Of a stretch of 64,000 bases of DNA, positions 3,425-7,399 are shown one piece after another. Made by a program: the position numbers and the translations under genes. This DNA comes from Streptomyces atratus. GTDB lineage: Bacteria > Actinomycetota > Actinomycetes > Streptomycetales > Streptomycetaceae. The stretch is from NCBI RefSeq assembly GCF_014648655.1, contig NZ_BMRN01000003.1, positions 124,001 to 188,000 on the forward strand, written 5' to 3'. The stretch's first letter is position 1. Each line of letters begins with the position of its first letter. The notes below the pieces were generated by a model. It made no database searches. It was not told the DNA's origin and saw nothing but the letters and a program-made list of their open reading frames with translations.

Positions 3425-4366
3425 TCACGGCACGGACGGGCCGCGTATGTATGTGCCTGCGGCTGTGTACGGCCACGCATTGGCGACGCACCCCTTCAGC
3501 CCGTTGATCTGCTGCATCATCGCGGGGGCGGGGCGGCCCTTGCCCGGGCAGGTCTCATGGCCGTGGCCCAGCCAGTGGCCGACCTCGTGATTGATGATCA
3601 GCGCCCGGTACTCGGCCAGCGGCCCGTCGAACTGCGGTGACCCCCGCATCCACCGCTTCAGGTTCACCACGACCGTGGTGCCGACACGGCAGTTGACCTC
3701 GCCGTGTGTGTCCAGCCCGTACGCCCCGCAGAGCCGGTCGACGGTGTCCGGTGTCGCGATCCGGATCACCAGACCGGCCGGGCCCGAGTCGACCTGCCGG
3801 AACGCGTCGTGCCCGGTGCGGGTCCAGCCGCGCGGGTCGCCGAACACCTCGGAGATCGCGGCCGCGGCGGGACGTGTGGCCAGACCGGTGCCCCGCTCCA
3901 CCTCGACGCGGTAGCGGTGGACGGTGCCGGTGCCATGGCTGCCGGTGCCCGCAGCGGCGGCGGTGACGAACGTACCGGAGCCATGTCCGGGCACAAACCC
4001 GCGCGAGGTCCGGGACCCGTCCGCCCGCTTCCTCGGCTCGGGCCTCTTCTTCGCCCTGCGTTCCTTCCCGGCGTCGGAGGCGGCACCCGAGGCGGAGGGG
4101 AGCGGACGGCCGGGCACGGAGCGGGAGTCCGGCCCGGGGGCCGAGGCCGGGGACGACGACACCGCCACCCGGTCCGACGGGGCGTCCGCCACCGCAGACG
4201 CCCCGTCACCGCCGCCCCACGGCCCCCACACCAGCGCCCCGCAGAGCAGCGCGCCCGGCACCAGCAGGGCGCCCATCACTCGTATCCGGGTCCGTCGGCG
4301 GCGTGCCCGCCGGGTTGCAGCACGACCACGGCCCCGCCCCCTGCGGCCCCGCTCCTCACCCGCCAT
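3425..4366 (-). CDS. DUF3152 protein, putative secreted/anchored metzincin-like metallopeptidase (copy A)
   Basis: This 313-residue protein has an arginine-rich cytoplasmic start, one membrane or signal segment at about residues 30-48, a low-complexity Ser/Pro/Lys stalk to about 125 and a DUF3152 domain from about 148 to the end. The domain carries HEVGHWLGHGH at 260-270, which fits the metzincin zinc motif HExxHxxGxxH exactly. A Met-Met pair at 283-284 could serve as the Met-turn. Four cysteines (213, 226, 273, 293) are shared with copy B and may form disulfides. The ATG at 4366 was chosen because it overlaps the end of the upstream gene by 11 bases, making it the third gene of the sigma factor operon. 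DUF3152 has no established function that I know; extracellular proteolysis is inferred from the motif. Confidence 0.85.
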   Translation of the reverse strand: MAGEERGRRGRGRGRAATRRARRRRTRIRVMGALLVPGALLCGALVWGPWGGGDGASAVADAPSDRVAVSSSPASAPGPDSRSVPGRPLPSASGAASDAGKERRAKKRPEPRKRADGSRTSRGFVPGHGSGTFVTAAAAGTGSHGTGTVHRYRVEVERGTGLATRPAAAAISEVFGDPRGWTRTGHDAFRQVDSGPAGLVIRIATPDTVDRLCGAYGLDTHGEVNCRVGTTVVVNLKRWMRGSPQFDGPLAEYRALIINHEVGHWLGHGHETCPGKGRPAPAMMQQINGLKGCVANAWPYTAAGTYIRGPSVP

Positions 4367-5279
4367 GGACGGACCCCCGCTTCGGCTCCATCGGGAACGC
4401 GTCCGCGTACTGCACGAGGTGCAGGAAGCGGGCGTCCCGGGCGACTTGGAGCAATTGGTCGGTGGTGACCGGCGCCGAGACCACGGCGGAGTCGTCGCCG
4501 TCGGCCGAGAGGACGACGGTGCTGTCCTTGAACCTGAAGCGGACACTGACGCCGACGATGTCCTTCCCGCCCTTCGAAGTCCCTACCGCGGTGACGGTGC
4601 GGGCCACGATGCCGTCCGGCAGTGCCGCCTCCTCGCACCGGTACTTCTTCTTCTGGCCGTAGTGGCACGGCTCCTGTGCCGGGCTGACGGACACGTCGCC
4701 GGTGGGCTGTACGGAGAAGACGACGGGGAAGACCTGCCCCCCAGACCCGCCCTGGTACCGGCTGACGGCCAGGTCGACCGGGCGTACCGTGCCGAACGCC
4801 GCAGGAAGCAGCTCGTCCAGCACGGCCGCCGCCTTCTGCTGGAACTCCTCCTGCCGCCCGCGCTCGGTCGCGGGCAGGTCGGCCATGGACGACTCGCCCG
4901 GAGTGGGTTGGATGTGGACGGGCGTACGTGACGGCCCGGGGAACGAGGGGGGCCGCGTCGGGAAGTCGGTCGTGGGCCTGGTGGGCCCGGGGGACGGGGT
5001 CCCGTGCCCCATGCTCGGTGCGGCAGGTGCCCCGACCCGCGCGGCGCCCTCGCCCGTACCCCAGGACGGCAGCATCGCGCCGAGCACTCCCAGCGCCACC
5101 ACTCCCACCATCCCGCCGCCGATCGCCGCCCGCGCCCTGGTGCGGCGCCTGCGGCCCCCGGCCAGGGCGGCCGGTACCAGGTCCGGCAGCGGTGGCGCAC
5201 CCTCGGCCGCCTCCGCCATGGCCTCCCTGATCAGCCGGGCCTCGCTCTCCTGCGGCGCACCTTCCGGAAACATGTCCAT
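4356..5279 (-). CDS. Single-pass membrane protein, putative anti-sigma factor of the adjacent sigma
   Basis: The 307-residue product has a short cytoplasmic segment (1-45) with an acidic helix (ESEARLIREAMAEAAEG), a basic stop-transfer patch (RRRRTRAR), one helix at about 52-71 and a large outside region. That region has a Pro/Thr linker and a C-terminal domain with two cysteines (near EPCHYGQ and YRCEEAA). The ATG at 5279 is preceded by GAGGAG at good spacing and starts 10 bases after the sigma factor stop. Position and topology are those of anti-sigma or sigma-accessory proteins of SigE-family sigma factors, but I see no zinc-binding HxxxCxxC anti-sigma motif, so the role is inferred. The outside domain may sense the signal, or be cut by the metallopeptidase encoded next. 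Confidence 0.75.
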   Translation of the reverse strand: MDMFPEGAPQESEARLIREAMAEAAEGAPPLPDLVPAALAGGRRRRTRARAAIGGGMVGVVALGVLGAMLPSWGTGEGAARVGAPAAPSMGHGTPSPGPTRPTTDFPTRPPSFPGPSRTPVHIQPTPGESSMADLPATERGRQEEFQQKAAAVLDELLPAAFGTVRPVDLAVSRYQGGSGGQVFPVVFSVQPTGDVSVSPAQEPCHYGQKKKYRCEEAALPDGIVARTVTAVGTSKGGKDIVGVSVRFRFKDSTVVLSADGDDSAVVSAPVTTDQLLQVARDARFLHLVQYADAFPMEPKRGSVHGG

Positions 5280-5289
5280 GACGTTCTCC

Positions 5290-5799
5290 TCAGCTGCGGG
5301 TGGTGTAGAGGTGCGGGTCGCCCAGCCGCGTACGAAGCGTGGCGAGCGAGCGTGAGCACTGGCTCTTGACGGTGGACTCACTGCAGCGCAGCAGCTCGGC
5401 GACCGTCTGCACGCCCAGGTCCTCCCAGTAGCGCAGGACGACCATCGCCCGGGCGCGGGGCGGCAGTTCGGCGAGCGCGGCCAGCAGCGTCACCGTCAGT
5501 TCGGGGCCCACCGCGGAGGGCGGGGCGTCGACGTGGCTGTGGGCCAGGAAGTCCCGGAGCCGGCGCCGGCGCTCGGCGAGATACGTCCGGGTGAGGACGG
5601 TGCGCGCATAGGCTGCGGGTTGGTCGGCTTTGCTCGCCCGGTGCCAGTACTGGAAGAGCTTGGCCAGCGTCGTCTGGGTCAGATCGCGGGCGCTCTCCGC
5701 ATCACCGCACAGCAGATATGCGGTCCGGTACAGACGCCGTTGGTTCGCCCGGGCGAACTCTTCGAATCCGGTGGAGTCCCGACTGCCGTCTGCGGTCAT
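5290..5799 (-). CDS. SigE-family ECF RNA polymerase sigma factor
   Basis: This 169-residue sigma factor has region 2 at about residues 11-78 (FEEFARANQRRLYRTAYLL, then DLTQTTLAKLF, which contacts the -10 element). Region 4 lies at about 105-157, with the helix-turn-helix QTVAELLRCSESTVKSQCSR. The length is typical of the small actinobacterial SigE-like group; no extra C-terminal domain is present. The ATG at 5799 follows a strong GAGGGGGACAG site. It leads a three-gene operon with the membrane protein and DUF3152 copy A. A promoter-like element upstream (5838-5867) also occurs before the second DUF3152 gene, which suggests that the sigma factor transcribes both units and autoregulates; this is inference. 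It should not be equated with S. coelicolor SigE of the CseABC system. Confidence 0.92.
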   Translation of the reverse strand: MTADGSRDSTGFEEFARANQRRLYRTAYLLCGDAESARDLTQTTLAKLFQYWHRASKADQPAAYARTVLTRTYLAERRRRLRDFLAHSHVDAPPSAVGPELTVTLLAALAELPPRARAMVVLRYWEDLGVQTVAELLRCSESTVKSQCSRSLATLRTRLGDPHLYTTRS

Positions 5800-6592: not shown

Positions 6593-7321
6593 TCACGGTA
6601 CCGGCGGGCCGCCCAGGTAGTGGCCCTCGGCGTCGTACGGCCAGGGGTTGGAGACACACCCCTTCAGTCCGTAGATCTGCTGCATCATCGCGGGGGCGGG
6701 GCGGCCCTTGCCCGGGCAGGTCTCGTGGCCGTGGCCCAGCCAGTGTCCGACCTCGTGGTCGATGATGAGCGCCCGGTAGTCGGCGAGCGGGCCGTGGAAT
6801 TCGGGTGATCCCTGCTGCCAGCGCTTGAGGTTGACCATGACGTCGGCGCCGACCCGGCAGTTGACCTCGCCGTAGGTGTCCAGGCCGCTCCGCCCGCAGA
6901 TGGCGTCGGTGGTCCCGGGGGTGGCGATACGGATGACCAGTCCCGCCGGACCGTCGGTCACCTGGCGGAAGGTGCGCTCGCCGTGGTGCGACCAGCCCCG
7001 TGGCGCAGCCAGGATGCGGGCGATCTCCGCGGCGGCACGGTCGGGGTCGACGCCCGAACCGTCCTCCACCTCGACCCGGTAGGCGTTGCCCTTGCCCTTG
7101 CCGGTGTCCGAGGCGCCGGCGCGGGCGACGGTGAATGTGCCGCTGCCCGACGAGGTCCCGGACGCGGACGGCGCGGCCGTCTTCCCCTCGGCGTCGGTGC
7201 TCCACCGGGGCCCCACCACAGCGGCGGCACAGATCAGCGCCGCCGGGACGACAGCAGCCACGAACAGCCGTTTCCGGCCGCGTTCCGGCCCGAGCCGCCG
7301 ACGTGCCCTCTCTGCGGACAT
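6593..7321 (-). CDS. DUF3152 protein, putative secreted/anchored metzincin-like metallopeptidase (copy B)
   Basis: This 242-residue paralogue of the 3425-4366 gene has a basic start, one hydrophobic helix at about residues 18-36, a short Ser/Gly linker and a DUF3152 domain from about 78. The zinc motif HExxHxxGxxH is intact (H189, E190, H193, G196, H199), followed by Met-Met at 212-213. The four cysteines correspond to those of copy A (142, 155, 202, 222). The last 100 residues are nearly the same in both copies, while the linkers differ in length. The ATG at 7321 has a GGGGGGAG site and lies divergently from menG. An ECF-type promoter element identical in layout to that of the sigma operon lies 48 bases upstream, so both DUF3152 genes may belong to one regulon. 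The proteolytic role is inferred. Confidence 0.87.
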   Translation of the reverse strand: MSAERARRRLGPERGRKRLFVAAVVPAALICAAAVVGPRWSTDAEGKTAAPSASGTSSGSGTFTVARAGASDTGKGKGNAYRVEVEDGSGVDPDRAAAEIARILAAPRGWSHHGERTFRQVTDGPAGLVIRIATPGTTDAICGRSGLDTYGEVNCRVGADVMVNLKRWQQGSPEFHGPLADYRALIIDHEVGHWLGHGHETCPGKGRPAPAMMQQIYGLKGCVSNPWPYDAEGHYLGGPPVP

Positions 7322-7369
7322 CTGGGCTCCCCCCTGGTTCCCGGTGGCTCTGTGTTCTGTGTTTCCTTC

Positions 7370-7399
7370 TGTACTGACTGCCGGTGGACCCAATTGGTT
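7370..7399 (-). promoter_or_regulatory. Putative ECF promoter of DUF3152 copy B
   Basis: On the minus strand AACC (7399-7396) and CAGTACA (7376-7370) are 19 bases apart, as at 5838-5867 before the sigma factor gene. The following bases, AGAAGG against AGAGG, are also alike. The element could be a true sigma-specific promoter or simply homology left from duplication of the region; the neighbouring bases are otherwise largely different. Confidence 0.5.

Follow-up and report, generated by a model that had tools for sequence, protein, structure and literature searches.

Two promoters and two DUF3152 genes around a sigma factor operon of Streptomyces atratus

Does one sigma factor control both DUF3152 genes that lie beside an extracytoplasmic function (ECF) sigma factor gene in Streptomyces atratus? 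The locus belongs to a stretch of 64,000 nucleotides (contig NZ_BMRN01000003.1, positions 124,001 to 188,000), here called the window, and consists of the sigma factor gene (SIG), the gene of a one-pass membrane protein (MEM), a DUF3152 gene that ends the operon (D3152a) and a second, separate DUF3152 gene (D3152b; Table 1). The original prediction, made from the sequence of the window, had joined these genes into one regulon through a promoter element, AACC-N19-CAGTACA, upstream of both SIG and D3152b. With slightly more confidence than doubt, we favour a different arrangement, in which the SIG-MEM-D3152a operon would activate itself through its promoter P1, with MEM as brake and sensor and the protease as output, and D3152b would be mainly under another envelope ECF sigma factor through its own promoter, P2.

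The two boxes and the promoter of the sigma operon

Both boxes are exactly as described, with identical spacing. The first, at 5838-5867 on the minus strand, reads AACCTTTTGGCCACGGCATCACTCAGTACA and lies 38 bases before the ATG of SIG at 5799; the second, at 7370-7399 on the same strand, reads AACCAATTGGGTCCACCGGCAGTCAGTACA and lies 48 bases before the ATG of D3152b at 7321. They are the only exact matches to AACC-N19-CAGTACA in the window, and with up to two mismatches allowed there are 11 (both boxes included) vs 4.45 expected, a number reached in 2 of 100 shuffles. The 9.8 Mb genome holds three exact matches, two of which are these boxes (reversed control: 0). A longer shared form, AACCNNTT-N14-TCAGTACAG, recovered these two at zero mismatches, none at one, two at two and 45 at three, and its reversed control gave 36 in total. 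The motif was chosen after comparing both upstream regions, so these chance figures are optimistic. Searched in relatives as a shared element, AACC-N19-CAGTACA did not hold up: it precedes SIG in one of the 42 named loci (L037; G and L numbers are our labels for genomes and loci) and none of the seven other second-copy DUF3152 genes. Exact CAGTACA was rejected as a recognition box, as it is kept at neither promoter across relatives.

Another pattern is conserved before SIG. Our sample comprised the 42 named loci with SIG relatives and further loci, 92 entries altogether, with some species counted twice and the window included. The sequence (C/A)AACCT occurs within 300 bases upstream of SIG in 92 of the 92 entries, and 59 of 61 distinct P1 sites have exactly 18 bases between AACC and TC, giving the consensus TTCAACCTTT ... 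CTC. The pattern CAACCTTT-N14-CTCNGWA was found in 26 of 295 Streptomyces genomes with one match each (reversed control: 3), always at the same type of locus, 20 times before SIG and six times before a DUF3152 gene from which SIG is gone. SIG orthologues (E 1e-45 or better) are present in 37 of the 295 genomes in 38 copies. P1 was detected at the 30 copies whose loci were retrieved (29 by regular expression, one, L186, by eye) and also at the copies of G150, G080 and G262 and the second copy of G103; this check covers all 38 copies except those of G288, G186, G248 and G144. Because the pattern is found once per genome, fixed before an ECF gene, autoregulation would explain it best, and the SIG-MEM-DUF3152 operon is conserved and probably autoregulated. 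A large P1 regulon was rejected, there being one match in the genome of the window and at most one per genome across the 295; the two sites at two mismatches in that genome, judged by eye, were unconvincing.

The gene order predicted for the operon, with a DUF3152 gene at its end, thus recurs in relatives behind one specific conserved promoter. A MEM reading frame follows SIG in 79 of the 92 entries, and DUF3152 comes after SIG in 26 of the 42 named loci. Among the other 16, six (L044, L047, L052, L058, L070, L078) end at a contig edge soon after SIG or MEM, and the remainder, 10 of the 36 uncut named loci, have SIG with MEM but no DUF3152 beside them, a count that refers to the locus only. 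A rough scan of open reading frames (ORFs) in 16 loci without DUF3152, four of which gave no result, found no common third gene after MEM. Four genomes (G179, G195, G140, G203) and the named strain AC1-42W carry two tandem DUF3152 genes behind SIG-MEM. A decayed-looking cassette was seen at L172 (G006:C6:91000-99500), where SIG can be matched only as far as residue 114 and the DUF3152 sequence spreads over two reading frames.

The second DUF3152 copy and the base before TC

A tree of 44 DUF3152 domains separates the two genes of the window. D3152a clusters with the copies from S. atratus, S. gelaticus and S. palmae (100/98), and D3152b lies within the group of tandem copies, 14 rows with a support of 92/90 (marked open, without a star). 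Closest to D3152b are G228 (single copy) and G190 (second copy), followed by the G190 first copy and after that by the second copies of G179 and G203. Owing to this position, D3152b appears to be a former tandem copy that most likely left a pair like the one in the operon of relatives.

The block GGACT(G/A)AACCAAT ... GTC ... ACAG lies before the second tandem DUF3152 copy in six loci and also in G228, and AACC-N18-TC precedes all eight second-copy type DUF3152 genes (the six loci, G228 and the window). CTRAACCAAT-N14-19-TACAG gave nine matches in the 295 genomes, seven of them before DUF3152 (window included), with one control match; the remaining two (G020, G170) lie elsewhere and have a shorter spacing. 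Because the block recurs before second-copy genes in this genome search, P2 is, by all that the comparison tells, a genuine, old promoter of the second DUF3152 copy.

Across species, AACC-N18-TC, which fits the AAC...TC layout of Streptomyces sigma-E promoters, is common to both promoters, but the base before TC differs consistently. Of 53 distinct P1 sites, 51 carry C here, two A and none G; all eight P2 sites carry G. The position lies inside the spacer of the originally proposed element, just before TC. According to an excerpt of a study of S. coelicolor sigma-E (PMC6767563), this factor recognises its promoters through AAC and TC, which are separated by a spacer of 16 or 17 bases; in a table of 91 such promoters, G occupies the second position of the -10 hexamer in 71, A in 10 and C in another 10. 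The same excerpt states that in Bacillus single -10 bases decide between ECF sigma factors. We built a sigma-E matrix from this table, whose own 10th percentile is 8.1. P2 scored 10.4-11.7 in five of the eight species; P1 scored 1.5 in the window, with a median of 2.7 and a range of -0.2 to 9.5. P2 more likely leans to the sigma-E type, weakly in the window. Since its -10 is GTC and not CTC, P2 would depend chiefly on a different envelope ECF sigma factor; service by an ECF factor of the sigma-E class is the more likely case, for which the copy in the window is a weak example.

Some genomes have lost SIG at the locus. P1 and DUF3152 are found without SIG in six of the 26 P1 genomes (G143, G151, G298, G190, G019, G194), in which the best other sigma factor is at most 49% identical. 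MEM remnants were detected in G190 and G194 (tblastn) and short remnants of the SIG start in G190, G298 and G194 (by eye). G228, which is outside the list of SIG holders, keeps P2 and DUF3152, and the 8.5 kb retrieved from it contain no P1 and no SIG. Altogether, DUF3152 stands behind P1 and/or P2 without SIG in seven genomes. It is a single open frame in five of them and frame-shifted in G019 and G143, by decay or assembly error. In the corresponding loci of the first six (L081, L083, L090, L091, L093, L101), P1 was seen directly before DUF3152, and the space between them holds no more than scars of SIG or MEM.

The membrane partner and the predicted proteases

SIG scores 149.4 bits against TIGR02983 (curated cut-off 141.55) and has sigma regions 2 and 4 only (Sigma70_r2, 16-80; Sigma70_r4_2, 105-155; both above cut-off). 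Among named SIG proteins, the one from S. atratus is the closest (98% identity). A literature search on TIGR02983 and on PF11350, the DUF3152 profile, found no paper. MEM starts 10 bases after the end of SIG. In an alignment of 40 sequences it has a short inner tail with PPLPDLV...GRRRR, a membrane helix, and an outer domain at about 137-295 that holds two invariant Cys. MEM had no match in Pfam and NCBIfam at E 0.1, and a sequence search of solved structures returned three weak rows (E 0.16-0.27). Its model has two helices before the outer part, 10-27 and 35-69, the latter with the membrane segment, and the modelled outer domain gave fold matches to PsbP, Mog1 and LpqN at 8-13% identity in most rows. 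Comparison with class I anti-sigma factors (ASDI) gave no profile match, and two helices rather than four. In class II (CnrY-type) anti-sigma factors, as summarised in an excerpt of PMC7406223, a short inner tail has two helices that bind sigma regions 4 and 2; the MEM tail, likewise short and with modelled helices at 10-27 and from 35 onward, was compared with this layout. MEM is predicted to be a short anti-sigma factor with a PsbP/LpqN-like outer domain.

In 31 of 38 loci with SigE-family paralogues, a one-pass membrane protein is encoded immediately downstream. The inner motif of MEM occurs in 11 of these 31 partners and in none of two control sets of 17 and 10 ORFs, and all eight blastp matches of MEM at E < 1 fall within residues 9-110. 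The gene order and the inner motif point to MEM as probably the anti-sigma factor and sensor of SIG, and the membrane partners of the paralogues perhaps constitute a general, unnamed anti-sigma type. In these partners (L007-L033, L136-L145) we also observed inner tails that are alike and outer parts that are dissimilar.

D3152a, whose gene overlaps MEM by 11 bases, and D3152b score 119.3 and 117.9 bits against PF11350 (cut-off 25.1). The residues H189, E190, H193, G196, H199, M212 and M213 are invariant in 21 DUF3152 sequences. They correspond to the metzincin signature HExxHxxGxxH plus Met, for which the choice of the Met-turn residue is assumed. The modelled core resembles the catalytic domains of matrix metalloproteases (MMPs) and YbeY, and DUF3152 proteins are predicted to be metzincin-like zinc proteases; a sequence search of solved structures with DUF3152 found no relative. 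The family occurs in one of 14 control genomes, that of Corynebacterium glutamicum. A literature search on its name found one paper (PMC3726780), an excerpt of which lists Rv3207c in a table; we found neither a report of activity nor an assigned function for the family. The genome of the window has a third DUF3152 gene (G000:C1:385407-385949) with the best family score, 203 bits. It was rejected as a carrier of the shared element, as no match to P1, P2 or the longer form lies near it.

Table 1. Coordinates of the cassette and its neighbour in the window.
Feature	Position	Strand	Basis
SIG, ECF sigma factor, SigE family (TIGR02983), 169 aa	5290..5799	-	Pfam and NCBIfam profiles
MEM, one-pass membrane protein, 307 aa	4356..5279	-	alignment of 40, model, fold matches
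D3152a, operon DUF3152 protein, 313 aa, predicted membrane-anchored metzincin-like zinc protease	3425..4366	-	PF11350
D3152b, second DUF3152 protein, 242 aa, groups with tandem copies of relatives	6593..7321	-	PF11350, tree
HEVGHWLGHGH zinc-binding motif of D3152a	3557..3589	-	sequence; invariant positions in 21 sequences
HEVGHWLGHGH zinc-binding motif of D3152b	6725..6757	-	sequence; invariant positions in 21 sequences
P1, SIG operon promoter: TTCAACC (5870-5864) ... CTC (5846-5844) ... AGTACA	5838..5870	-	
P2, D3152b promoter: CTGAACC (7402-7396) ... GTC (7378-7376) ... AGTACA	7370..7402	-	
menG, divergent neighbour, context only	7466..8158	+	NF001241, 414.5 bits, cut-off 327

The end of D3152b is some 0.8 kb away from SIG on its upstream side, and P2 lies between D3152b and the divergent menG, a gene present at 25 of the 42 named SIG loci. 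As in many relatives, the cassette is flanked by menG and an mqnC-like gene (window 1513-2712; named from sequence). P1 and D3152b are some 725 bases apart (5868-6592). Pieces of this interval align to three different parts of the S. atratus locus, over 201 bases (85%), 44 bases (91%) and 32 bases (84%), so this region of the window looks rearranged. Between menG and the SIG operon, the S. atratus locus has a further ECF-like gene on the opposite strand (L037:4798-5256), 30% identical to SIG.

A proposed circuit, its rivals and related systems

In the circuit that we propose, MEM would hold SIG by its short helical tail inside the cell, and its outer PsbP/LpqN-like domain would sense something, upon which SIG would be freed. 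Freed SIG would read P1 and give more SIG, MEM and protease, and D3152a, made as the output, would act outside the membrane. D3152b would keep its old promoter P2, with a different envelope ECF sigma factor as its main driver, and in relatives with a tandem pair the second copy would in addition be transcribed by read-through of P1 transcripts. Each protease would thus respond to a different sigma factor, and some cross-talk may occur. A narrower version, which we hold unlikely, has the cassette as a closed unit with itself as the sole regulon, made up of the ECF sigma factor, a minimal two-helix anti-sigma factor, a PsbP-like receptor and, as sole output, a metzincin feeding back on this receptor, and repeatedly gutted so that the protease survives behind an orphaned promoter.

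Several findings weigh against the circuit as proposed. The matrix score of P2 in the window is 4.6, the poorest of the eight, and those of G190 and G228 are 6.9, all below the 10th percentile of the table; 20 of the 31 partners of the paralogues lack the MEM inner motif; and P1 is retained in the six genomes without SIG. In the pair G298/G194, the -35 and -10 elements of P1 are identical and five of 14 spacer bases differ, with a regional mean column identity of 74%. This conservation is only suggestive, because the MEM remnant in the same comparison is also well kept. Such retention suggests that something other than SIG can read P1, or that the SIG losses are recent. It is what would be expected if SIG did not read P1 at all, its targets lying elsewhere, and sigma-E or another general ECF factor served both promoters. 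AAC and TC are indeed sigma-E landmarks, and the majority of the sigma-E promoters tested were also read by other ECF factors (excerpt of PMC6767563). We find this hardly probable, given that P1 scores low on the matrix with CTC instead of GTC and that its pattern is confined to this locus in 26 of 26 genomes.

The originally proposed single regulon, with SIG acting at P1 and P2 alike in this species, keeps more in its favour, and one sigma factor reading both promoters is possible. Eleven box letters and the spacing are identical and rare in the genome, AACC-N18-TC is common to both promoters across species, both DUF3152 genes share one operon in five relatives with SIG, and the low score of P2 in the window fits as well. 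We nevertheless regard it as somewhat unlikely in view of C vs G before TC, the exact box being conserved at neither promoter, and the persistence of P2 in G190 and G228, which both lack a SIG orthologue. The further suggestion that a DUF3152 protein cuts the outer part of MEM, starting or ending the release of SIG, draws on the overlap of the two co-encoded genes, on a predicted metzincin-like domain that would be on the same side as the outer domain of MEM, and on the stepwise cleavage of anti-sigma factors in other systems (excerpt of PMC8103513). As an essential step, such cleavage has become less likely, and a protease that is part of the switch seems quite improbable, because SIG-MEM occurs without an adjoining DUF3152 gene (the 10 uncut named loci) and DUF3152 without SIG (the seven genomes). 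A protease as output, as in our proposed circuit, is more likely.

These results link DUF3152 with an ECF signalling pair and with two promoters that can be tested. Besides being small, the cassette has natural variants: some genomes have both the sigma pair and the protease, and others have just one of the two. Such variants make it directly testable whether the protease is output or switch, and how one -10 base affects the choice of ECF sigma factor in Streptomyces.

Parts of the cassette resemble known systems. DUF3152 shares with metzincins such as matrix metalloproteases and karilysin the HExxHxxGxxH motif, the downstream Met residues and a modelled core like that of MMP catalytic domains, but differs in having no solved relative by sequence search. 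The proteins whose fold the outer domain of MEM may resemble, LpqN, the PknH sensor domain, PsbP and Mog1, are distant in sequence and, judging by their titles, none has an anti-sigma tail. The envelope-stress regulon of S. coelicolor sigma-E (CseABC) has the same AAC...TC layout, and P2 of five of the eight species lies within the range of its table, whereas P1 has CTC at -10 and a low score, and SIG is a different ECF factor with its own membrane partner. Closest in design are the ECF/anti-sigma pairs of the RseA, CnrY and RsbN types, in which an ECF sigma factor likewise precedes a one-pass membrane protein whose inner tail is helical, behind an autoregulated-looking promoter. The MEM tail, in contrast, has no sequence match to any of them and two predicted helices, nearer to CnrY (class II) than to the four-helix class I (excerpt of PMC7406223); the outer domain is predicted to be PsbP/LpqN-like, and the third gene encodes a predicted metzincin.

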